DNA of 39,323 bases from a virus. The position numbers and the translations under genes are program-made. This document shows, one piece after another, positions 4,343 through 29,690 of the stretch (its first letter is position 1; each line of letters starts with the position of its first letter). Where the stretch lies: IMG/VR virus record IMGVR_UViG_3300028423_001017, positions 1 to 39,323 of that record, one strand, 5' to 3'. The notes under the pieces are model-generated. The model had not been told where the DNA came from, made no database searches, and worked only from the letters and a program-made list of their open reading frames with translations.

Positions 4343-5029
4343 ATGGGCGGAAATGTATTTGATAACTGTGTGCCGTTTGATCAAGCGTTCACGGCAGATC
4401 TAACTCAACAGTTGGATCAAGTTCTTCACAAATTGCATGTAAACGCTATTCCAATAGGCAGCACTGCTAATCCTGTGTCAGGACAAACCAGTGGCGATCT
4501 AGATGTGATTGTTGAACAAAATATTTTGGGTAGGCAATTTAACACACGAAATACTCGCACCATAAGAAAAAAAATGAAATCTGCGTTCGAACAAGCAGGA
4601 TACGACACTGATCAAAGTGGTGTGAGTGTTCACGTTAATCTTCCATTAAATAGACGCTATCATCAGGCAGACATAATGGTAGTAGAGGATGCTGCTAATG
4701 TAAGCAAGTTTCACATACACAATATCCCCAAAGGGTCTCCTTACAAGGGCATAAACAAGCATCTTGCACTTATGTACCTTGCCAAACAACAGAATCTGTT
4801 GTGGAGCGCTTTCAGTGGACTGTATCGCAGAGATCAAAACGGTAAACGCAGTGATTTGATAACACGCGACATTGACAGAATTGCCTATATTCTGTTAGGC
4901 GTAAACGCAACTGCAAAAGACATAGCAAACTTTGAAAACATACAATCTGCCATGTCCAGTCAGCAAGCACAAGAAATGTTAAACACACTGAGGCAAGATG
5001 CAAATTGGAAAGAACATAAAACAAGCTGA
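4343..5029 (+). CDS. Pol beta-type nucleotidyltransferase
   Basis: A 228-residue protein with the minimal nucleotidyltransferase signature: GS at 39-40, then DLD at 52-54 (metal ligands D52 and D54) and a third carboxylate at D110 in HQADIMVV. This set is typical of the polymerase beta superfamily (tRNA CCA-adding, antibiotic and protein nucleotidyltransferases). Acceptor substrate is unknown. It begins a run of three overlapping genes, each with a different nucleotidyl-transfer motif; its end overlaps the next gene by 32 bases. A strong GGGGAGG lies upstream of the ATG. Confidence 0.8.
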   Translation: MGGNVFDNCVPFDQAFTADLTQQLDQVLHKLHVNAIPIGSTANPVSGQTSGDLDVIVEQNILGRQFNTRNTRTIRKKMKSAFEQAGYDTDQSGVSVHVNLPLNRRYHQADIMVVEDAANVSKFHIHNIPKGSPYKGINKHLALMYLAKQQNLLWSAFSGLYRRDQNGKRSDLITRDIDRIAYILLGVNATAKDIANFENIQSAMSSQQAQEMLNTLRQDANWKEHKTS

Positions 5030-6134
5030 GAACAAACAGCTTGGCCGCGCATTCAACCACTTGGAAGATCTTGTATTCTTCTATGGCAGCAAAGGCACCG
5101 CGGAGGCACTGCAACATCTAAGAGACTTTGCCACTGTGCAAGGCAGCAGCAGTATACGCATGAAATGGGACGGCAATCCACAGATATACTGGGGTAGACA
5201 AACAGCAGGCGGACCTTTGGTGCTGGCAGGGCACAATCAATGGAGCCGCAGGGTTATTGCCACTACACCAGAGCAAGTCAAAGATTTCATAGCAAACAAA
5301 AGTGGCAACCCTAAAGACCACAGAGAATGGTGTCAGCGTGAACAGTTTGCAGAACAGTTTGCAAGTTTGTACGATCACTTCGACAAAGCAACGCCTGAGA
5401 ATTTTCAAGGCTATGTGTACGCAGACGGATTGTTTTTATCACCGCAGATAGCACAGGACGGAGTTTACACTTTCTCCCCTAACCCAAGAAGTAAAACCTG
5501 CTATCATGTGAATCAACACACCGAGTTGGGCAGGAGAATCGGCAATGCAAAAACAATGGTAGTAGGTCATGCTTTTTTTGCAGAATTTGGAGCAGCAGAC
5601 AGCAAACAAAAACCCATAGACGATTTCAGCATGTTTAACAGAAATCCTGACTTGATAGTGCAAGGCCCAGTGTACAATACACAGCCTGTGAAAATAAACA
5701 CAGATGAAATTGTTTTTGTGGAAAACTATATGAAACAACATGCACATCAAATCGACAGTTTTTTGGAAGGCACTGTGGGATTAAGCGATCTCAAAAACAT
5801 CATCTATACCTATGTGAATCACAGTGCCAAATCCAAACAGTTGGACAGCATCAGTGAAAAACATTTTTTTCACTGGTTAACAAACAGCAAAGTCAGCAAA
5901 AACAAGCAAAAAAAGATTGCAGATTTGAATCAGCAGTTTCTAGGAGCAGTGAATGCAATATTTAAATTGGTTAAAATGATTCAAAACATAAAGGACAGTG
6001 TAATAGATCAAATCAAAGGCAAGCATGGAGACATATGGGATACCAACGGCGAAGGTCATGTGAGATACAGTGACCCTGACAAACAATTTGGCAACATAAA
6101 ACTGGTACCAAGGAAAGAGTGGACACCTGCATGA
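4998..6134 (+). CDS. KxDG-motif protein, possible ligase-like nucleotidyltransferase
   Basis: A 378-residue protein whose N-terminal half carries MKWDGNPQIYWGR (55-67). The KWDG core (K56) resembles motif I of covalent nucleotidyltransferases (DNA/RNA ligases, capping enzymes), where the lysine is adenylylated or guanylylated. I cannot clearly assign the later ligase motifs (EGxxxK, WxKxK), so the fold call is tentative. I recall similar proteins in T4-like cyanophages, annotated as hypothetical. It overlaps the Pol beta-type gene upstream and shares ATGA with the NadD/NMNAT-like gene downstream, so the three are translationally coupled. Confidence 0.6.
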   Translation: MQIGKNIKQAENKQLGRAFNHLEDLVFFYGSKGTAEALQHLRDFATVQGSSSIRMKWDGNPQIYWGRQTAGGPLVLAGHNQWSRRVIATTPEQVKDFIANKSGNPKDHREWCQREQFAEQFASLYDHFDKATPENFQGYVYADGLFLSPQIAQDGVYTFSPNPRSKTCYHVNQHTELGRRIGNAKTMVVGHAFFAEFGAADSKQKPIDDFSMFNRNPDLIVQGPVYNTQPVKINTDEIVFVENYMKQHAHQIDSFLEGTVGLSDLKNIIYTYVNHSAKSKQLDSISEKHFFHWLTNSKVSKNKQKKIADLNQQFLGAVNAIFKLVKMIQNIKDSVIDQIKGKHGDIWDTNGEGHVRYSDPDKQFGNIKLVPRKEWTPA

Positions 6135-6733
6135 CACAGAATCAATGCTCAACACTTGCCACTGAAACAGTGGGCTTGATTTTTGGAAGATTCAATCCAC
6201 CGCACAAAGGGCACAGTGCTGCATGGTCTCAGGCCAGCAAAGAAACACACTGGTATGTGGGCACAAATCGCAGCACACAGGGTCCAAAAGATCCCTTGCC
6301 GTTTTGTGTAAAAGTCAAATGTATGGAAGCTGTGTATCCAGAAATAACCAAGCACATTGTTGCCAGTCAAAGTTGGTTGACACTGGCTAGTGAACTGTAT
6401 ACCAAGCATCCGAAAGCTGGTTTGGTTCTGTTTACTGATGAAGCATGGGTGTCAAAAACTGTGCAACGGTACAACGGAGTAAAAGGACCCCATGGTTTTT
6501 ACAGGTTTGAGAAAATCAAAACAAAGACTACTCCAAGACTCAGCAGTGCAACTGCACTGAGACAAGCAGTGCTGGACAATGATACAAAAAGGTTTCAAGA
6601 AGCAGCAGGTGTGCCAGCAGATACACTGATTGATGTTAACGGAGTACACAGCGATTTTTTCAATACAGTAAGACAGTATTTAGAACCATACAAAGAAAAA
6701 AATTCTTGCAAAAAATTGCTGGATGCACTATAA
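6131..6733 (+). CDS. HIGH-superfamily nucleotidyltransferase (NMNAT/cytidylyltransferase-like)
   Basis: I start at the ATG overlapping the preceding TGA (ATGA), giving 200 residues. GRFNPPHKGH at 19-28 is the nucleotide-binding (H/T)xGH motif of the cytidylyltransferase/NMN adenylyltransferase superfamily. SSATALR at 138-144 matches the second phosphate-binding motif (ISSTxxR). The reaction is transfer of AMP or CMP to a phosphate-bearing acceptor; NMN in an NAD salvage pathway is one option. The acceptor cannot be told by eye. It is the last of three consecutive nucleotidyl-transfer genes. Confidence 0.82.
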   Translation: MTQNQCSTLATETVGLIFGRFNPPHKGHSAAWSQASKETHWYVGTNRSTQGPKDPLPFCVKVKCMEAVYPEITKHIVASQSWLTLASELYTKHPKAGLVLFTDEAWVSKTVQRYNGVKGPHGFYRFEKIKTKTTPRLSSATALRQAVLDNDTKRFQEAAGVPADTLIDVNGVHSDFFNTVRQYLEPYKEKNSCKKLLDAL

Positions 6734-6743: not shown

Positions 6744-7838
6744 ATGAATGTGTTTTTTCTTTTACCAGAAGTATATCCTGCTCCTCACAACAATATTGTA
6801 GTAACCAATCAAATCAAACCCAGTGATGTGCCATTGGAAAATGTTTTTGCACACTTTGACGATTTCAGTTACAGAAATTTTTTGTTGTTTGAAAAAAGAA
6901 ATTTACTTCCTAAAGATGCTAAAAAGTTCGTTGTGTATTTCATACACATGCCCAATGACACTGATGTGCCCATTGATAAACAGGTAGTAAAAGAAGTCAA
7001 CAACGATCCTAACACATTTTTGTTATTGGTCAGTGTTTTTGAGCATGTGGTTACACCTCAAGAATTGCATAATACTTTGCAGAAAAAAAGGATTAAAACA
7101 GATAAAACTGTGTGTATGGTAAGTAACATCCACATGCACAACAAACTACACGGTGGAATTCGTTTTTTACATGTTGACTTTTGGGAAAGCTATACAAGAC
7201 ACCATCAAAAGTTTATGAGCACAAGCACGGAAATGGATATAAGAGAAAGACTCAACACCATTGATCACGCCAAGAAAAAATTTCTCTGTTTAAATAGAAA
7301 TCTAAAACCACATAGAATTTGGTTTTATTATGCACTGTTGAAAACAGGCGCTGTCAAGGAGGGTCATGTAAGTTATCATCTTCCAAAAATTGAAGAAGAC
7401 AAAAACAATTACAATAGAATAGCAAACGAGCATATTGTTTTAAAGCATATTCCTGCTGCATTGCACAAAGACTATTTCTACTATCTCAAACGCAAAATGC
7501 TTGTGAGAAACCTAGATAAATTAGATGACGTAAACATCATCAATTACAAAAAAAGTATAAAAAATTATTACCAAGACAGTGTAGTTAGTATAATAACTGA
7601 AAGTGATTTTCGAGGAGTATTTTTAACGGAAAAAACCTTCAAGGCAATTGTGCATTGTCATCCTTTTTTTATCATTGGTAACCCGCACCATCACGAACTA
7701 CTGAATAATCTAGGATATTACACATTTGAGGATTTATTTGACAGCAAAGCAGTTGGCAAGTTTAGACAAGCCGAAAACATGTTGAACAATCTAAAATCAA
7801 AAGATCTCACAGATTTAACACTGGGATATGCCAGTTGA
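6744..7838 (+). CDS. putative glycosyltransferase-like protein
   Basis: A 364-residue protein. FLCLNRNLKPHR at 180-191 and ITESDF at about 284 are followed by EKTFKAIVHCHPF at 296-308, a glycine-containing loop, and LGYYTFEDLFD. This arrangement resembles a family of phage and bacterial proteins related to nucleotide-sugar glycosyltransferases (GT10-like/GT-B C-terminal region), where the Glu-Lys pair contacts the donor. The N-terminal half is not recognised. It heads the radical SAM block and overlaps the first radical SAM gene by 11 bases. No Shine-Dalgarno is visible. Confidence 0.55.
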   Translation: MNVFFLLPEVYPAPHNNIVVTNQIKPSDVPLENVFAHFDDFSYRNFLLFEKRNLLPKDAKKFVVYFIHMPNDTDVPIDKQVVKEVNNDPNTFLLLVSVFEHVVTPQELHNTLQKKRIKTDKTVCMVSNIHMHNKLHGGIRFLHVDFWESYTRHHQKFMSTSTEMDIRERLNTIDHAKKKFLCLNRNLKPHRIWFYYALLKTGAVKEGHVSYHLPKIEEDKNNYNRIANEHIVLKHIPAALHKDYFYYLKRKMLVRNLDKLDDVNIINYKKSIKNYYQDSVVSIITESDFRGVFLTEKTFKAIVHCHPFFIIGNPHHHELLNNLGYYTFEDLFDSKAVGKFRQAENMLNNLKSKDLTDLTLGYAS

Positions 7839-8937
7839 CAACGTCAATCGCAATGGCATCAAGGGTGCATGGAACAGCGAAAAAATGCGACAGCTAAGAA
7901 TGCGCATGCTCGAAAATATTCCCAGTGAAGGCTGTGCAAAATGCATAAACTATGACCGCCAGGGTATTATCAGTTATCGACACAAGATGAACACTGAGTA
8001 TGCACATCACATGGACACTGTTGAATCCACACATGAAGACGGCACAGTAGACAAAGTTAATCTAGCATATTTTGATATTCGTTTTAGCAATCTCTGTAAT
8101 ATGAAATGTCGCAGTTGTGGTCCTCATTTCAGCAGCAAATGGGCAGAAGATATAAACGGAAAGCCCGAGGTTGTGGAAATCGATCATCCAGAGATGTGGA
8201 GCGAGATCAAAGAAGCACTGCCTAACATTGAAGAAATATACTTCACCGGCGGCGAAAGCTTGTTTATGGCTCAGCACTACAGACTTTTGGATATGTTAAT
8301 TGAACGAGAATTAAAACCTAGACTCACTTACAACAGTAATGCCACAAGACTGAGTCTCAAAGGCAAACACATCAAGGATTATTGGAAACACTTTGACAAT
8401 ATTGTGTTCTGTGTAAGCTGTGATCAAATAGGTGACAAAGCAGAGTATACTAGAAATGGTCAGAGTTGGAATACTGTGTACAACAATCTCTGTTGGATTC
8501 GTGACAACTTTGAACAAGGCTATAACAAAGGCGTTGTCATTCAACCAAACCCTACTATCAGTGTTTTAAATGTGTGCGATCTAGGAGAAATATTAAATTA
8601 TTTGTTTGACAATGATTTAGCAACTGATTATGATATCAACATGAACAATCTTTTGGTAGGTCCTGAATGGTTAAGCTGCACTATATTACCAGAACATCTA
8701 AAACAATTGGCTGAGAACAGACTTGTTGAATTTAAGAACAGTTTAGATAAAAGATCCATGTATCCACAACGCAAGCAGTTTCTATACAGCGGAATTGACA
8801 ATGTAATCAATTACATGCACAGTCGAGACGATACACATCTTATACCACAGTTTAGAGAAGAGATGCAAAAACTGGATATGATAAGAGGTGAAAACTTTTT
8901 ACGAGTGTTTCCAGAATTAAAGGATTTATATGTCTAG
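7828..8937 (+). CDS. radical SAM protein (twitch/SPASM-like), N-terminally short
   Basis: A 369-residue radical SAM enzyme. CNMKCRSC (C90, C94, C97) would bind the [4Fe-4S] cluster that cleaves S-adenosylmethionine, and TGGES at 140-144 is the SAM-binding GGE motif. Close paralogues at 8930 and 10135 begin with an FCxxPW...CC segment; this protein lacks that segment (about 45 residues) and starts near its GCAKC (C36, C39). It therefore has fewer ligands for an auxiliary cluster. Its start overlaps the glycosyltransferase-like gene, suggesting a deletion or gene fusion event. It shares ATGTCTAG with the next gene: its TAG stop lies inside the first codons of that gene. Confidence 0.88.
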   Translation: MPVDNVNRNGIKGAWNSEKMRQLRMRMLENIPSEGCAKCINYDRQGIISYRHKMNTEYAHHMDTVESTHEDGTVDKVNLAYFDIRFSNLCNMKCRSCGPHFSSKWAEDINGKPEVVEIDHPEMWSEIKEALPNIEEIYFTGGESLFMAQHYRLLDMLIERELKPRLTYNSNATRLSLKGKHIKDYWKHFDNIVFCVSCDQIGDKAEYTRNGQSWNTVYNNLCWIRDNFEQGYNKGVVIQPNPTISVLNVCDLGEILNYLFDNDLATDYDINMNNLLVGPEWLSCTILPEHLKQLAENRLVEFKNSLDKRSMYPQRKQFLYSGIDNVINYMHSRDDTHLIPQFREEMQKLDMIRGENFLRVFPELKDLYV

Positions 8938-10138
8938 CAAGTACAGTGACGATAAAACATTTTGTATGATGCCTTGGGTGCACATGCATACTTGGCCGGC
9001 AGGAACTACCTATCCGTGTTGTATGGCAGATCCTGATCTGCCCATTGGCGATACACAGACACAAAATTTACAGGAAATATGGAACGGTCCTGAACTGCGC
9101 AAAATTAGAATGAACATGCTGCAAGGCAAAAAGTCTGCGGAGTGCAGACGCTGTTACGAACTTGAAGAAAATGGCATGTGGACATTGCGCAGGAGTGCAA
9201 ATGAAAACTTTCAACACCACCAAAACAAAGTGGAAAGCACCAGCGACGACGGCAGCGCCGGTGATGTCAACATGGCATACATGGATATTAGATTCAGTAA
9301 TCTTTGCAATCTCAAATGCCGCAGTTGTGGCCCACAGTTTAGCAGCAGTTGGTTTGAAGATCACAAACTCACACACGGCGATCCTGGGCATCCAAAGATA
9401 CTGAAAGTCAAAGAGGACATGACAGAGTTCATGAACGAACTTGACCCACTGTTGGAAAGTGTGGAAAGAGTTTACTGGGCAGGCGGCGAACCACTTATAA
9501 CAGAAGAACATTATCGCATACTGGACAAGTGGATCAGTATGAACAAACATGATGTAAAGATGGACTATACCACAAACTTTACACAAATGAATTACAAGAA
9601 AAAGACAGCGTTTGATTACTGGAATGCGTTTGAGCATGTGAGAGTGGCAGGCAGTCTTGATGCAAACCATGCCCGTGGAGAGTATTTGCGCAAAAATATG
9701 GTATGGAGTCAAGTGGTACAAAACCGTCGTGATATGATTGCACAATGTCCTCATGTTTATTTTGAACTTACTCCTACTGTGAGTGTATACAATGTGTTCA
9801 ATTTGCCTGATTTTCACAAGGAGTGGATTGAGGAAGGATTGGTAGAACCGGCCAATATTAGAATAAACATTTTGCTTGATCCTACTTATATGAGATTACA
9901 AATTTTGCACCCGTGGCAAAAAGATCAAATTAGACACAGATATCAGCAGCACATAAATTATCTCAAACAGTTTGACAATATTGATTCTGTAATCAACGAT
10001 TATGAAAATGTTCTACAGTTTTTAGAAACAGACAGGTCAGAGGAACAATCAGTGTTTTTGTATAAAACTAAAAAAATGGACAAAATAAGAAAAGAAGATT
10101 TTGCTACAGTATTTCCAGAATTGGCAGACATACAATGA
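8930..10138 (+). CDS. radical SAM protein (twitch/SPASM-like)
   Basis: A 402-residue enzyme. The radical SAM motif CNLKCRSC (C126, C130, C133) is followed by AGGEP. The N-terminal region has FCMMPWVHMH (C12), a CC pair (C30, C31) and CRRC (C72, C75), probably ligating an additional iron-sulfur cluster. It is a clear paralogue of the 7828 product: both share VEST..DG, the DIRFSNLCN stretch and a common C-terminal IRxExFxxVFPEL. Such proteins modify peptides or small substrates by radical chemistry; the substrate here is unknown. It overlaps both neighbours and is part of one operon. Confidence 0.9.
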   Translation: MSSKYSDDKTFCMMPWVHMHTWPAGTTYPCCMADPDLPIGDTQTQNLQEIWNGPELRKIRMNMLQGKKSAECRRCYELEENGMWTLRRSANENFQHHQNKVESTSDDGSAGDVNMAYMDIRFSNLCNLKCRSCGPQFSSSWFEDHKLTHGDPGHPKILKVKEDMTEFMNELDPLLESVERVYWAGGEPLITEEHYRILDKWISMNKHDVKMDYTTNFTQMNYKKKTAFDYWNAFEHVRVAGSLDANHARGEYLRKNMVWSQVVQNRRDMIAQCPHVYFELTPTVSVYNVFNLPDFHKEWIEEGLVEPANIRINILLDPTYMRLQILHPWQKDQIRHRYQQHINYLKQFDNIDSVINDYENVLQFLETDRSEEQSVFLYKTKKMDKIRKEDFATVFPELADIQ

Positions 10139-11349
10139 AAGAAACGTTCTGTGTATATCCGTGGATAAACCTGCATACCAACACTGATGGACGCTGTAAA
10201 CTGTGTTGTCATGTTTACGGCGAAGATTACATCACTGTGGACGGCGAAGATGCAGTATTGGGCAAAACTGAGTTTGACAAAATATGGTGCGGCGATTATA
10301 TGACAGATGTGCGCGACAAGATGCTCAGTGGACGCAAAGTCAGCGAGTGCCAGCGCTGTTATGATCACGAGGACAAAGGTTTAGAGAGCAGCAGACAATG
10401 GGCAAACAAAATGTTTCCTATAAAAAATGCAGAAATTTTTGATCCAACTCATCTTGAATTGAGACTAGGAAATCACTGTAACCTCAAGTGCAACAGTTGT
10501 TGGAGCGTAAGCAGCGACCAGTTGTACAAAGAGCGCAAAAAAATTATGAGCAAAGAATCTGTGCCGCAGTGGCTATCAGATCAATGGAATCACGAAATTC
10601 GCAGTGTTGAACAGTTTGACTGGCAATGGTTTGAAACTGACGAGTTTAAACACTTTGTGGATCGTGTTGCTCCTACACTGAAAAGACTTTATCTAACCGG
10701 TGGCGAACCCACACTGATTGATGCAAATCGTTATGTGCTGGATCAACTTGTAAAATCGGGCAACAAAGATTGTCATGTTGCATGGACTACCAACATGACC
10801 ACATGGCCGCAGGAATTTTACAATAAATTGGATTTTTTTCACAGCAGCGAAATACAGATGAGCATCGACGGTTTTAAAGACCATAACAGTTACATACGAT
10901 ATCCTACTACATGGGAAAAGGTAGAGCAAAACTTTGCGCATGCTATGCAGTTACCACACAGTGTACAACTGAAAATCTATTTTGTATATCAGGCATGGAA
11001 CATTTTTGATGTGGAACCTCTTATAACATGGTTGCAGCGAGCACAGGGAAATAGGCGTGTTGATTTTGTGCCTATATTTTTAGAACATCCTGATCAAATT
11101 CATAGCTGTGTATGGCCCGAGCATGTAAGGCACAGCGCTGTGGAACAGTTGCAAAGCATAAACACAGTGCATCATCGTGATCCAGTATCGCGAATCGTTA
11201 ACTACACAGTTAATACCAATAAATACAGCGTTGAAAATTTACAAAAAATGAAACAGTTTGTTGAAATAAACGACAGGTATCGTCGTCGTACCTTTGGAGA
11301 AACATTTCCTGAATTAAACAGTATATTGGAACAAGAATGCAAGATATAA
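10135..11349 (+). CDS. radical SAM protein (twitch/SPASM-like)
   Basis: A 404-residue paralogue with CNLKCNSC (C115, C119, C122) and TGGEPT. The N-terminal cluster region has FCVYPWINLH (C6), CKLCC (C21, C24, C25) and CQRC (C72, C75). The C-terminal segment ends in FGETFPELNSI, as in the other copies. It overlaps the upstream gene by four bases (ATGA) and the downstream gene by 13. Substrate unknown. Confidence 0.9.
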   Translation: MKETFCVYPWINLHTNTDGRCKLCCHVYGEDYITVDGEDAVLGKTEFDKIWCGDYMTDVRDKMLSGRKVSECQRCYDHEDKGLESSRQWANKMFPIKNAEIFDPTHLELRLGNHCNLKCNSCWSVSSDQLYKERKKIMSKESVPQWLSDQWNHEIRSVEQFDWQWFETDEFKHFVDRVAPTLKRLYLTGGEPTLIDANRYVLDQLVKSGNKDCHVAWTTNMTTWPQEFYNKLDFFHSSEIQMSIDGFKDHNSYIRYPTTWEKVEQNFAHAMQLPHSVQLKIYFVYQAWNIFDVEPLITWLQRAQGNRRVDFVPIFLEHPDQIHSCVWPEHVRHSAVEQLQSINTVHHRDPVSRIVNYTVNTNKYSVENLQKMKQFVEINDRYRRRTFGETFPELNSILEQECKI

Positions 11350-12329
11350 AGGCAATTATTCCAGCCAAGGACAAATGGGTAAGCATAGTATGGCAGGTCA
11401 ACGATTGGTGCAATTTTAGATGCACTTATTGCAGTGAATGGAACTGGGCCGGGCGTCACAAAAATGAGCACGACATCAATACTATTGTGCAGACACTGGA
11501 ACAAATAATAAAACATTATCAAAGCAAAGGTTATGTGTATTTCAAACTGTTTCTCAGTGGCGGAGAGCCTACTTTTTGGAATGGTCTGATTCCTGTGGTT
11601 AAAAAATTTAGAGAGTTAGTTGAGTGGCCTGGAAGCTGCGTTGGTATCAATACAAACTTTTCAAAACCTTTGAGCTGGTGGCAAAATTATCATCATTTGT
11701 TTGAGGATGTGGTAGCCAGCTATCATGCAGAGTGGACCAAAGAAGACAAGTACCTGCAAACCTACAAGTTTTTGCAAGATAAGAAAAATTATCTTTGCAG
11801 CAGAATCATGATGCATCATGACAGATTTCAGCAGTGCATCGACTTCTCTAATAAAATCAAAGAACACTGTGACAATTATCACATAGAATATGCTCCTGTA
11901 TACGACGAGCTACGTCCTAGCACAGATCCTTATTACTATGATGAACAGTGGAAGATGGATTTCTTCAAAACACACAGCACTGAGAGAAATCAAACTGTGC
12001 CCATTGATAAACAACCCAGTTATGCCTGGGCACAAGTTTGGTACGATGATGACACAGTGGAAGCAATAGACACAAACGCTATTATAACAGAAGGCAAAAA
12101 CTTTTTCAAAGGTTGGTTGTGTAATATACACGAAAGCCTGCACATACACCCCAACGGACGTATACAGGCTGCAAGCTGCGGTGTTGGGCCTATAGTAGGA
12201 AACATTGTAGAAGGCAACTTTGATAGCAATCTAGCAGAAGGTGTATGGTGTCCAAAAACACATTGTCACTGTGCAGCAGATTTTAATATCTCAAAGGCAA
12301 AACCAGAATATGCAAAACACATCAGATAA
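11337..12329 (+). CDS. radical SAM protein with C-terminal SPASM-like Cys cluster
   Basis: A 330-residue enzyme of different build from its neighbours. The radical SAM motif CNFRCTYC (C25, C29, C32) lies near the N-terminus and SGGEPT at 74-79. The auxiliary-cluster cysteines sit at the C-terminus (WLCNI, AASCG, then CPKTHCHC), the usual SPASM order seen in peptide-modifying enzymes. HIHPNGRIQAASCG is typical of the SPASM CxxxxxxC region. It lies between two N-terminal-cluster paralogues, so it probably carries out another step of the same pathway. Confidence 0.9.
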   Translation: MQDIKAIIPAKDKWVSIVWQVNDWCNFRCTYCSEWNWAGRHKNEHDINTIVQTLEQIIKHYQSKGYVYFKLFLSGGEPTFWNGLIPVVKKFRELVEWPGSCVGINTNFSKPLSWWQNYHHLFEDVVASYHAEWTKEDKYLQTYKFLQDKKNYLCSRIMMHHDRFQQCIDFSNKIKEHCDNYHIEYAPVYDELRPSTDPYYYDEQWKMDFFKTHSTERNQTVPIDKQPSYAWAQVWYDDDTVEAIDTNAIITEGKNFFKGWLCNIHESLHIHPNGRIQAASCGVGPIVGNIVEGNFDSNLAEGVWCPKTHCHCAADFNISKAKPEYAKHIR

Positions 12330-13653
12330 ATTACCAGGAAACTTCTGTTATTATGCTATGCAAGGATTTAGTAGTCATCCACACGGAAGAACTAGACCCT
12401 GTTGCTTTAGTAGACAGAATACCAAAAGATTTATGTCCACTGTTGATGTAAAAAAATATCCTGTGTACGATCAAGAAAGCCACAGGTTTGAACCAGTTGA
12501 CAATATAGAAGATTTTGTTAACGATGATGAAATAAAAAAAATTAGAAAATCTTTGATCAACGGTGAAAAGCCCAAAGGGTGCAGCGAGTGTTTCAAATTA
12601 GAGGATCAGGGTGTTCGCAGTTTTAGGCAAACTTTCAATGAAATTTACGAAGATGAAATTGATACCAGTTTAAAACACTTGTCCAAGGATGGACACCTAG
12701 ACCCTAAAGCAATAACTTACCTTGATATAAGTTTGGGAAATGTGTGTAATCTCAAATGTCGCAGTTGCAATCCTTGGGCCAGTAGTAGATGGATAGAGGA
12801 AGGTCCGACAGTGCCTCACACTGACTGGGACGAAACTGCATACATAGTAGGAAACATGAGCAGCAAAAATCCATGGTTTATACATGCATTTGAAACAGGG
12901 TTTTTTGACGGTGTGTTGCCCAATGTAAAAAGAATCAATTTTATTGGCGGAGAGCCACTGGTGGTAAAAGAGCATTATGCATGGCTAGAACACATAGTCG
13001 ATTGTGGCTGGGCTGATAATATAGATCTTCACTACAACACCAATGCAACTACCATACCAGACAAGCTGTTGGACATATGGAAACATTTCAAAGGTGTGGT
13101 ATTGAGCATCAGCATTGATGCTGTGGATGATTTAGCATACTATGTGCGTTTTCCCAGCAAGTGGTCTGTTGTGCAGAAACAGGTAAACAAGCTAAAAAAC
13201 TTCAGTAAAAATCACACAGGTGTTACTGTGCAAACACATGTTACACTCAGTGTGCTAAATCTTCATGACTTGCCCAATGTGTTAAACTGGTGTGAACAAA
13301 ATTATCGCAGTTGGCATTACACTTGGGAATGGGGAAATCACGGATATCAAAATTGTCTACCGCATTTCAATTTTGTAGACTGGCCCCAAAATATGAATAT
13401 ACGTCACTTACCTGATCAAGAAAAAACCGTGCTTGCTGAAATGCTTGATCAACAATACAACAAATTCAGTGCCATGCAGTTGCCAGAATGGGAACAACAC
13501 AGTGTGGAAAATATCAAAGGTATAAAAAATATTCTACTTCAACAAAGAGATCCTGAGATGTGGAGCCAGTTTATAGACAATACTCGTGCCAGTGACAATT
13601 TTCGAGATATAAATATACTGGATTATATACCGTGGATGGAAAAATATATTTGA
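12310..13653 (+). CDS. radical SAM protein (twitch/SPASM-like)
   Basis: I start at the ATG at 12310 (447 residues); a GTG at 12241 would only add sequence that overlaps the previous gene. N-terminal FCYYAMQGF (C13), a CC pair (C31, C32) and CSEC (C91, C94) precede CNLKCRSC (C146, C150, C153) and IGGEP. It is the longest of the five, with an insertion between the first cysteine group and the radical SAM core. The C-terminus differs from the other copies (ends ...LDYIPWMEKYI). It overlaps the preceding gene by 20 bases and the next by about 22. Confidence 0.9.
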   Translation: MQNTSDKLPGNFCYYAMQGFSSHPHGRTRPCCFSRQNTKRFMSTVDVKKYPVYDQESHRFEPVDNIEDFVNDDEIKKIRKSLINGEKPKGCSECFKLEDQGVRSFRQTFNEIYEDEIDTSLKHLSKDGHLDPKAITYLDISLGNVCNLKCRSCNPWASSRWIEEGPTVPHTDWDETAYIVGNMSSKNPWFIHAFETGFFDGVLPNVKRINFIGGEPLVVKEHYAWLEHIVDCGWADNIDLHYNTNATTIPDKLLDIWKHFKGVVLSISIDAVDDLAYYVRFPSKWSVVQKQVNKLKNFSKNHTGVTVQTHVTLSVLNLHDLPNVLNWCEQNYRSWHYTWEWGNHGYQNCLPHFNFVDWPQNMNIRHLPDQEKTVLAEMLDQQYNKFSAMQLPEWEQHSVENIKGIKNILLQQRDPEMWSQFIDNTRASDNFRDINILDYIPWMEKYI

Positions 13654-14270
13654 AAAAATTGATATTTTTTGGAGAAGCATCTCCGTTGCAGGACAGATTT
13701 ATTGAGACTTTAGCAGAGCACTACGCAGCAGAAGTGGAGAACCTTGTGAATACAGATGCCACTGTCAGTGAAGTGCATCGCAGTGTTGTAAGGTATGTTG
13801 TGGAATTTGACACCACTGATTGTTTTATTGTGATTGGCTGGCCTTCACCGTACAAGATAGAACTGCGAGAAGATCCTATAGATAAAAGCAATAATCGATA
13901 CCAGTTCAACGATGAAAATTATTTTTCATTTACTTTGAATCAGTATTTAACAAAACCCAACATGAAATACAACAAGCTTCACAAATTCAGCAGCATTATT
14001 TTTGATAATATTTTGGTAAATGGCAAATGGGCAGTCACAGCTTATGGACTGACTGAGTTTTTGAAATCTTTTGATATTCCGTTTGTTATGTACAATTCAC
14101 ACCAACCTATTGAAATTGATCAGTTTAATAAAAATACTATAAAAAACATAGATAGGCAATATTACAGCAGCACAGTTGATAAAAAAGAAACTATGAACAA
14201 AATTGCAAATCACAGCGAGCGTGTTTGGGCAGATAAAATCATTACTGAAATAGACAGGATTGCAAAATGA
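13632..14270 (+). CDS. SGNH-related hypothetical protein
   Basis: About 212 residues. Start uncertain: GTG at 13632, or TTG at 13650 overlapping the previous stop as TTGA, which gives the more natural beginning MKKLIFFGEAS. The strand LIFFGEAS, the FIVIGWPSPYKIE segment and the C-terminal NHSERVWADKI follow the layout of the SGNH-like protein encoded next (LVGWTSINRIE..., HLAWADVL). The SGNH nucleophile serine (GxSxT) is replaced by GEAS here, so it may be inactive. It is part of the same coupled gene string as the radical SAM genes. Confidence 0.6.
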   Translation: MDGKIYLKKLIFFGEASPLQDRFIETLAEHYAAEVENLVNTDATVSEVHRSVVRYVVEFDTTDCFIVIGWPSPYKIELREDPIDKSNNRYQFNDENYFSFTLNQYLTKPNMKYNKLHKFSSIIFDNILVNGKWAVTAYGLTEFLKSFDIPFVMYNSHQPIEIDQFNKNTIKNIDRQYYSSTVDKKETMNKIANHSERVWADKIITEIDRIAK

Positions 14271-14989
14271 AGATTGTTGCAATAGGTTGTAGTCACACTC
14301 ACGGCATTATGTTGGACGGCAAAACAGGCACTACCACATGGAATAGAGAAAACGCATTCGGTCCTACACTGGCCAAAAAGCATGGTTTTGGTTTTTACAA
14401 TGTCGGGTTGCCCGGTGGTAGCAATGAATATATTTACAGAGCAAGCATACATTTTTTAAACAACTATATACAAGCCAACGAAGATTATATATTTTTAGTT
14501 GGCTGGACCAGTATCAATAGAATTGAGTTTAGATACAACAATAAAAATTCCTATACACATGAAACCGATGGCGATTTTATAGACCAAAAATATATACCAT
14601 TCACAGCAGGCACTGATGCTAGATTGTTTAAACAGCCTTTGTTAAAAAGGTTACAGAAATTGACACCTCTTATATTCAATGATACAAAATTTTTAGATGA
14701 ATGGAGTGTGCAAGCTCTTACACTACAAAAAGTATTTGAAAATCTCAAAATGAAATATTTGATGTTCAATACCTGTCAAGAACTGGCAACTACTAAAAAC
14801 AACAAAAAGATAGTCGAAGGTCTCAACACGCGCACCTATATTGATCCACAAAATGAAGATGCATGTTTTTTAGATTGGGCACTCAACAAAGGTTATAAAA
14901 AAACCAAATGTTGGCATTTGATGCATGATGCGCACCTTGCTTGGGCTGATGTGCTGGATGCAAAGTGTCAAAGCCTAAATTACTATTGA
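14267..14989 (+). CDS. SGNH-hydrolase-like protein
   Basis: 240 residues with block I IGCSHTHG (S9 nucleophile), GLPGGSNEYI with N53, FLVGWTSINRIEF at 76-88, and a C-terminal DAHLAWAD containing the likely catalytic His (H223). SGNH enzymes are esterases or deacylases, often acting on acylated sugars. It overlaps the gene before it by four bases and is the last gene before a new sigma70-type promoter. The neighbouring radical SAM and glycosyltransferase-like genes suggest action on a modified peptide or glycan. It could instead be a non-catalytic relative. Confidence 0.75.
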   Translation: MKIVAIGCSHTHGIMLDGKTGTTTWNRENAFGPTLAKKHGFGFYNVGLPGGSNEYIYRASIHFLNNYIQANEDYIFLVGWTSINRIEFRYNNKNSYTHETDGDFIDQKYIPFTAGTDARLFKQPLLKRLQKLTPLIFNDTKFLDEWSVQALTLQKVFENLKMKYLMFNTCQELATTKNNKKIVEGLNTRTYIDPQNEDACFLDWALNKGYKKTKCWHLMHDAHLAWADVLDAKCQSLNYY

Positions 14990-18676: not shown

Positions 18677-19369
18677 ATGAACTATGTAGTATGTTTAAAG
18701 TGGGGTACCAAGTATGGTCCTGAATATGTAAACCGTTTGGCCAACATGGTCTCACGAAACACCACTGTAGATTATGAATTTGTATGCTTCACTGAAAATT
18801 CCTCCGGCTTGGATAAAAATATAAAAATAAAACCACTGCCCAAATATCCACTCACTGGCTGGTGGTACAAACCATACTTTCTCAGCAGCGATGTGCCATT
18901 GAAAGGCACATTGCTGTTTCTTGACTTAGATATAGTGGTTTTTAAAAATATAGACAAGCTGTTTGATTATGAACCGGGCAAGTTTTGTATTGTTCGAGAT
19001 TTTAACAGAAACACAAGGAAAAATTTTGATTATATGAACAGCAGTGTTTTTCGTGTAGAATCTGGCCAATATCACAATATATGGAAAGATTTTATCAAAA
19101 ACAGCAAATCACATGTTTCTCGAAACAGAGGCGATCAGGATTGGATGCAAAAAAACATCAAAGATCATGTGTATTGGCCTGACGAATGGATACAGAGCTA
19201 CAAATGGGAAATGCGCAGTCGGGCTGATCTTACTGTTGTGAACGGCAAGCGAAATTTCAAAGACGACAAGCCTCCCCAAATACTACCGGGCACTAGTATT
19301 GCCGTATTCCATGGCATGCCCAACCCAGAAGAATGCAACGACAAATGGGTTAAAAAACATTGGGTTTGA
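18677..19369 (+). CDS. glycosyltransferase (GT-A, DxD type)
   Basis: A 230-residue protein with FLDLDIVVFKNID near 81-93, where D83/D85 form the metal-binding DxD of GT-A glycosyltransferases (GT8-like). GDQDWMQ and the C-terminal FHGMPNP are also characteristic of this class. GWWYKPYF at 61-68 is the conserved aromatic segment. It begins at the base after the queD-like stop, so the two are coupled. The acceptor may be a phage or host glycan or modified DNA base; nothing decides which. Confidence 0.82.
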   Translation: MNYVVCLKWGTKYGPEYVNRLANMVSRNTTVDYEFVCFTENSSGLDKNIKIKPLPKYPLTGWWYKPYFLSSDVPLKGTLLFLDLDIVVFKNIDKLFDYEPGKFCIVRDFNRNTRKNFDYMNSSVFRVESGQYHNIWKDFIKNSKSHVSRNRGDQDWMQKNIKDHVYWPDEWIQSYKWEMRSRADLTVVNGKRNFKDDKPPQILPGTSIAVFHGMPNPEECNDKWVKKHWV

Positions 19370-21603: not shown

Positions 21604-22248
21604 GTGCGTATTGTTTCTTACGGTTGCAGTTTTACAAAATACCAGTATCCTACCTACGCTGATATATTAGCACAGGATTACACAGTTGACAACCACGGGT
21701 CAAGTGGTTGTGGCAATGATTACATACACTATAACCTTATGCAGGATTTTCAAAAAGGAAATCTACACAAATACGACATGGTTATAGTTCAATGGACTTC
21801 GTATACCAGATACAATTATCTGCACGCGCAACGCGGGTGGCTGGGTATGGATGGAAGTATTTGGCAAAATACCACAAATTTGGCTCTTTGGAAAACTGTT
21901 AAAAATATATATAATACACAATATGAATTTGACAGACAAATTAATTATATCATAGGAGCAAAGCATGCACTGGATACACTTGCAGCAAATGTGGTACACA
22001 TGTGTTATTTTCCATCAGGACTAGATTTCATGCTTTATGATAATATGTTTGAAAGATTCAAAGGAGATTATGTGTTTAAGCCTACAACCTTTTCGTTAAA
22101 TAATTGGATAGATGACCATCCAACAGTGATGCAGCATCTTCAAATTGCGAAAAGTATTGCACCGTTGAAAAATCAAACCAAATCGCGAGCAGTTGAAGTT
22201 GATACACAAATTCGACAAAATAAAAATTTTGTAAAAATTGATTTATAA
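21604..22248 (+). CDS. SGNH-like protein, GTG start
   Basis: A 214-residue protein beginning VRIVSYGCSFTKY with a GTG start 11 bases after AAGGA. YGCSFT (S9) is block I. NHGSSGCGNDYIHYN contains the block III Asn, and YDMVIVQWTSYTRYNYL matches the segment LVGWTSINRIEF of the SGNH-like protein at 14267. DDHPTVMQH near residue 180 may provide the catalytic His. It is the third member of this family in the window and the only one outside the radical SAM block. Its end overlaps a minus-strand gene by six bases. Confidence 0.75.
   Translation: MRIVSYGCSFTKYQYPTYADILAQDYTVDNHGSSGCGNDYIHYNLMQDFQKGNLHKYDMVIVQWTSYTRYNYLHAQRGWLGMDGSIWQNTTNLALWKTVKNIYNTQYEFDRQINYIIGAKHALDTLAANVVHMCYFPSGLDFMLYDNMFERFKGDYVFKPTTFSLNNWIDDHPTVMQHLQIAKSIAPLKNQTKSRAVEVDTQIRQNKNFVKIDL

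Positions 22249-22977: not shown

Positions 22978-29690
<6,713 letters not shown>

Follow-up and report, generated by a model that had tools for sequence, protein, structure and literature searches.

What does a phage do with five radical S-adenosylmethionine (rSAM) enzymes encoded one after the other? The question is raised by the IMG/VR virus record IMGVR_UViG_3300028423_001017, whose entire 39,323 bases are called the window here. Eight plus-strand genes form a block from position 6744 to 14989, in which every junction overlaps by 4 to 22 bp (successive spacings −11, −8, −4, −13, −20, −22, and −4 bp). Five of them, R1 to R5 (7828–13653), are rSAM genes, preceded by a glycosyltransferase (GT)-like gene and followed by two SGNH-like genes. 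This arrangement, described in an earlier note made from the DNA alone, was confirmed by the open reading frames and by the motifs CxxxCxxC and GGE, which were found in each of R1 to R5. This marine phage shares the rSAM block, set beside sugar-handling and tail fibre genes, with many uncultured aquatic T4-like phages; the conservation suggests that such phages make an unusual sugar decoration by radical chemistry, probably to be placed on their own particles.

Judged by profile score, R1 (7828–8937), R2 (8930–10138), R3 (10135–11349), and R5 (12310–13653; all plus strand) are members of the NCBIfam family NF033640, which has an N-terminal twitch domain (N-twitch rSAMs in the following). Their scores of 327, 398, 301, and 334 bits (E-values 1.6e-97, 4.5e-119, 1.1e-89, and 1.7e-99, respectively) greatly exceed the family's curated threshold of 170 bits and are far beyond chance, and the claim that four of the enzymes share one build held. 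R4 (11337–12329, plus strand) reached 20 bits and is hence not a member. It is nearest to STM4011-type rSAMs (hidden Markov model (HMM) E-value 1.1e-9, under the cut-off of that model) and its C-terminus bears a Cys array, but even at an E-value of 0.1 no match to a SPASM HMM was obtained; the designation as a classical SPASM protein was therefore dropped. Relatives of R4 are present in 38 IMG/VR loci. For R5, the ATG at 12310 is a likelier start than the mechanically assigned GTG at 12241, because it fits the length of the relatives.

The N-terminal twitch cysteines (FC..PW, PCC, and CxxC) are complete in R2, R3, and R5. In R1 (core motifs CNMKCRSC and GGES), the CxxC alone remains, and the missing FCxxPW..PCC is present in the relatives compared. 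Relative to the sister contig L005, the window shows a clean deletion of 207 bp spanning the junction of the GT-like gene and R1 (7812–7832), which costs the GT-like protein approximately 35 C-terminal residues and R1 the initial portion of its twitch domain. The junction sequence was absent from every other IMG/VR contig, and the R1 orthologues inspected in other contigs are full length. The deletion is either private to this record or an assembly error. The reduced auxiliary region that the earlier note had listed for one enzyme is thus a local loss, and it was rejected as a functional design.

The tree of the N-twitch rSAMs took in 280 proteins. An R2 orthologue was found in 51 of 57 loci, usually as a single copy (clade support 0.67), and R3 was represented by a single orthologue per locus in 26 loci (0.99). 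The orthologue clades of R5 and R1 covered 23 loci (0.59) and 10 loci (1.0), respectively. Since each copy of the window groups with orthologues in other phages, the copies are old specialists that have been inherited together. A recent tandem duplication inside this phage, which a phylogeny was to reveal, was ruled out; R2 is only 25–36% identical to R1, R3, and R5. CxxxCxxC and GG[ED] are retained in all 215 full-length N-twitch homologues, where broken motifs would have spoken against the earlier interpretation.

At least 551 IMG/VR viral stretches encode relatives according to a profile scan. In many contigs, a recurrent operon is found on one strand, in the order tail fibre (TF) – virF6 – f5 – GTfam4 – GTfam4 – (f11) – GTfam2 – three to eight rSAMs – f10 – SGNH – carbamoyltransferase – kinase, where GTst, the family of the GT-like protein, and SGNH genes are interspersed among the rSAMs, and virF6 is a structural-looking, repetitive protein. 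Of the 36 loci whose upstream flank was long enough to be evaluated, 24 have TF, virF6, GTfam4, and GTfam2 all ahead of the rSAMs; the other 12 are mostly members of the clade to which the window belongs. The genes are thus not scattered in viral metagenomes, and this strong synteny bears out the idea of one radical-based pathway with a conserved phage layout. GT families were detected in 95 of 97 distinct loci, compared with 1 of 20 control regions (20 kb each, from elsewhere in the same large phages). The corresponding values were 60/97 and 2/20 for SGNH proteins and 48/97 and 1/20 for a TobZ-like carbamoyltransferase. The family profiles were built partly from the tested loci, which favours the frequencies in the test set, but the contrast with the controls is still large. 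GTst orthologues adjoin rSAMs in 68 of the 97 loci.

Contigs with 73–87% identity to R2 mostly share the order NTase – 4998 – CytT – GTst – R1 – R2 – (B12-rSAM) – R3 – R4 – R5 – SGNH – SGNH, the first three being the nucleotidyltransferase (NTase)-like gene, the gene at 4998, and the cytidylyltransferase (CytT)-like gene. Most of these close relatives encode a sixth rSAM between R2 and R3, a protein of approximately 720 amino acids that combines a radical SAM domain with a B12-binding one and distantly resembles CysS, TokK, and other cobalamin rSAMs. It is missing from this position in the window and in L005, L007, L009, L011, L014, and L015.

The enzymes accompanying the rSAMs point to the kind of substrate. 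The carbamoyltransferase matches TobZ, GdmN, and the novobiocin carbamoyltransferase, all of them O-carbamoyltransferases of natural products. Locus L055 encodes a UDP-glucose dehydrogenase (UGDH), a C-methyltransferase, and a heptose-phosphate adenylyltransferase/mannose-6-phosphate isomerase; a sulphotransferase occurs in relatives, too. NDP-sugar epimerases, DegT aminotransferases, FkbM methyltransferases, and one S-adenosylmethionine synthetase are among the otherwise unassigned cluster proteins. GTfam4 weakly resembles glycogenin (GT8; E-value 0.0017). The N-terminal part of the N-twitch rSAMs matches the twitch domain of BtrN, and the top Foldseek match of the R2 model (pLDDT 92.9) is BlsE. 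BtrN acts on an aminocyclitol and BlsE on a sugar nucleoside. A sugar or glycan is preferred over a peptide because of the GTs in 95 of 97 loci, the carbamoyltransferase, UGDH, the epimerases, the aminotransferases, and the little room for precursor genes. We therefore consider the substrate of the rSAMs to be quite probably a sugar.

Could the rSAMs instead modify a protein? For a small precursor-peptide gene beside the rSAMs, there is almost no intergenic room: the 836 gaps within rSAM runs have a median of −11 bp, and only five of them measure 120 bp or more. A system for ribosomally synthesised and post-translationally modified peptides (RiPPs) was ruled out on this ground. The tail fibre or some other protein of the virion might still be modified, at side chains or backbone, in a RiPP-like manner requiring no small precursor, after which the GTs would glycosylate those sites. 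The weak scores of N-twitch proteins with the peptide maturases StsB and WgkB, the fold matches to CteB, SuiB, and anSME, and the structural genes in the same operon would fit this explanation. We consider it unlikely in view of the scarce intergenic room and the strong association with sugar-nucleotide and carbamoyl-transfer enzymes; in addition, no PqqD or RiPP recognition element (RRE) family and no peptidase or exporter was found in the 25 most frequent Pfam families of the 116 unassigned cluster proteins, which comprise 49 rarer families besides. Of the three substrates named in the earlier note (a peptide, a capsular glycan, or a virion glycoprotein), the peptide is thus disfavoured, whereas the gene context supports a sugar or glycan.

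Where might the modified sugar be attached? The window encodes a giant tail fibre protein (22978–29328, plus strand; phrog_9851 tail fiber, E-value 2.1e-47), which is the candidate acceptor. It lies downstream of the cassette here, as do homologous giant fibres in several records of the window's clade, whereas in the wider family the fibre gene is located directly upstream of the operon. Homologous fibre sequence was found in the records of 8 of 12 relatives, one of the eight being only marginal. No flippase, polymerase, or initiating phosphoglycosyltransferase was found among the 1603 cluster proteins, none of which has four or more hydrophobic segments. A virion glycoprotein is favoured over a capsular glycan because of the operon position and the absence of membrane-embedded export genes; that a virion protein is the acceptor stands at about an even chance.

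The same sugar pathway could also remodel the O-chain of the host lipopolysaccharide (LPS) or the capsule during infection and so exclude competing phages. PMC7029224 proposes such a role for GT8, rfaE, and UGDH genes in a cluster of this kind in pelagimyophages, and the same enzyme types are present here; moreover, the export machinery of the host could still serve. Set against the start of the operon with structural genes and the lack of multi-membrane proteins noted above, we regard this as rather improbable, yet as the foremost of the alternatives. Far less credible is a diffusible small molecule resembling an aminoglycoside or nucleoside antibiotic, directed against competitors or altering the host. 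Twitch rSAMs, a cobalamin rSAM, a TobZ-like carbamoyltransferase, and a sugar aminotransferase do recall aminoglycoside pathways, but the linkage to virion structural genes is fixed, several GT families occur per locus, and a transporter-like multi-membrane protein is missing from the clusters.

Taken together, it is about evenly balanced whether the block supplies the central rSAMs of a soluble pathway, encoded by the phage, that tailors sugars and whose GTs attach the modified sugars, most likely to virion fibres. In such a pathway, every rSAM orthogroup would have its own reaction that starts with hydrogen abstraction from a sugar, nucleotide sugar, or glycan; these reactions could include oxidation, dehydration, epimerisation, or C-methylation. 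The orthogroups involved would be R1, R2, R3, and R5 with their N-terminal auxiliary-cluster twitch, R4 as another type, and the cobalamin-binding rSAM in most close relatives. Partner enzymes would activate, transfer, and cap the sugar, namely, the GT-like and GT8-like glycosyltransferases and the SGNH proteins as acyl-esterases or acyltransferases, in relatives also the TobZ-like O-carbamoyltransferase, UGDH, NDP-sugar epimerases, sugar aminotransferases, and C-methyltransferases. The likeliest acceptor would be a virion protein, that is, the tail fibre or a neighbouring structural protein, and an exotic glycan on the virion may affect adsorption or shield the particle. Somewhat more tentatively, large aquatic T4-like phages may share a dedicated pathway not described before, in which four to eight specialised rSAMs (in many cases including a cobalamin-dependent one) rebuild sugars that are put on the fibres, resulting in a carbamoylated, radical-modified glycan coat unlike known viral glycans.

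Several points weigh against the sugar-tailoring pathway. The scores of sactisynthases, viperin, and anSME against R2 are similar to that of BlsE (TM approximately 0.3–0.5), and the predicted rSAM folds leave the substrate unfixed. The window itself contains neither the carbamoyltransferase nor virF6, its fibre gene is located approximately 8 kb away from the block, and the block may neighbour fibre genes because both sit in one variable region and not because they work together. GTfam2 has no database support, and the assignment of the GT-like protein (GTst; 6744–7838, plus strand; 364 amino acids, 3′ end of the gene lost to the deletion; motif TEKTFKAI..HPFF) derives from a weak fold match. 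The best PDB matches of its AlphaFold model (pLDDT 88) in Foldseek are mostly GT-B glycosyltransferases, with a probability of up to 0.98 for the alpha-1,3-fucosyltransferase 2nzw/2nzx at an E-value of only about 0.01; nothing was obtained at E ≤ 0.001. A PDB profile search with GTst and GTfam2 returned nothing, and Pfam yielded no match for the GT-like protein.

The two proteins at the end of the block differ in their conservation. The SGNH-like protein at 14267–14989 (plus strand) retains the G-x-S (here GCS), N, and H blocks and exceeds the cut-off of DUF6071 (31 versus 27 bits); the family profile matches GDSL/SGNH structures, for example, 4rsh (E-value 3.6e-5). The protein at 13632–14270 (plus strand), for which Pfam gave no match, is a divergent paralogue by its alignment to DUF6071/SGNH proteins. 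Its motifs are degenerate, with no clear catalytic set.

Upstream of the GT-like gene, a trio of plus-strand genes (4343–6733) codes for an NTase-like (4343–5029), a KWDG-containing (4998–6134), and a CytT-like protein (6119–6733), the last of which has cytidylyltransferase PHROG matches. The trio occupies the same position and order in most close relatives, and its tie to the sugar pathway is tentative. These nucleotidyltransferase-fold-like, ligase-like KWDG, and cytidylyltransferase-like proteins could form a nucleic-acid repair or capping module apart from it. A second glycosyltransferase (phrog_1962; 18677–19369) and another SGNH-like protein (21604–22248) are encoded in the interval that separates the block from the fibre gene. 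In the wider family, neither Pfam nor PHROG gave a useful annotation for GTst, GTfam2, f5, f10, f11, or virF6. The small to mid-sized conserved families f18 and f11 (L041, L044, L048, and L055) and f10 have no database match and a fixed place in the operon.

The number of N-twitch rSAM genes in whole records ranges from approximately 5 to 20, with the maximum in a 518-kb contig. This jumbo phage (G001, the 518,643-bp contig of L036) has 21 N-twitch rSAM matches, most above the family cut-off, across several clusters. Of 16 related contigs, 7 encode a T4-type Gp23 capsid protein and are T4-like by this mark. Among isolate phages, annotated homologues occur only in Vibrio phages K566 and K567 (OZ196521 and OZ196593), and searches of the isolate phage collection with one GTfam4 and one virF6 query gave no homologue. 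Genome scans gave matches mainly in metagenome-assembled genomes (MAGs) of Bdellovibrionota and Myxococcota. In Bdellovibrionota MAG contigs, N-twitch rSAMs lie near R4-type rSAMs and a carbamoyltransferase, in some also near SGNH genes; L112, L126, L127, L128, and L132, contigs of Bdellovibrionota or other bacterial MAGs, carry runs of several N-twitch rSAM genes. The phage operon including the fibre was found in MAG contigs labelled Pelagibacter, Rickettsiales, Rhodobacteraceae, and Neomarinimicrobiota (L107, L111, L115, L117, L120, L146, and L149), which are probably misbinned phages.

Genes for glycan or sugar modification are known from phages, but stacks of four to eight oxygen-sensitive radical enzymes are no recognised part of them. 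Their occurrence in several hundred uncultured viral stretches and near absence from isolate phage databases imply that a widespread virus chemistry has been overlooked. The cassette could disclose new radical chemistry on sugars, and Vibrio phage K566, a laboratory isolate carrying homologues, is open to test.

The statement in the earlier note that no described phage system has this layout was nearly right. The literature search found no published analysis of these rSAMs; the only relevant paper, PMC7029224 (2020), mentions rSAM cassettes in passing and without analysis in the host recognition clusters (HRCs) of pelagimyophages, which are T4-like marine phages, and ascribes the sugar genes of the cluster to host LPS modification, as far as its available excerpts go. 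Here, too, tail fibres, glycosyltransferases, and rSAM cassettes share a variable island, as described there. The rSAM family, the stack of paralogues, the gene order, the cobalamin rSAM, and the carbamoyltransferase, all identified here, do not appear in these excerpts. NF033640, whose name gives no function, is now set in the concrete genomic context of a multi-paralogue phage operon. BtrN/BlsE-type rSAMs resemble the phage enzymes in the single-auxiliary-cluster twitch of BtrN and in an rSAM core acting on a cyclitol or sugar, and TobZ-like carbamoyltransferases accompany the phage enzymes in relatives; however, the similarity is distant, and the twitch domain of BtrN is C-terminal, whereas the match in the phage rSAMs is N-terminal. 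In the cultured Vibrio phage K566 and in K567, a run of rSAM genes is likewise interleaved with GT8-like and GT4-like genes, but with approximately 23–26% identity, other flanks, and shorter rSAM runs.

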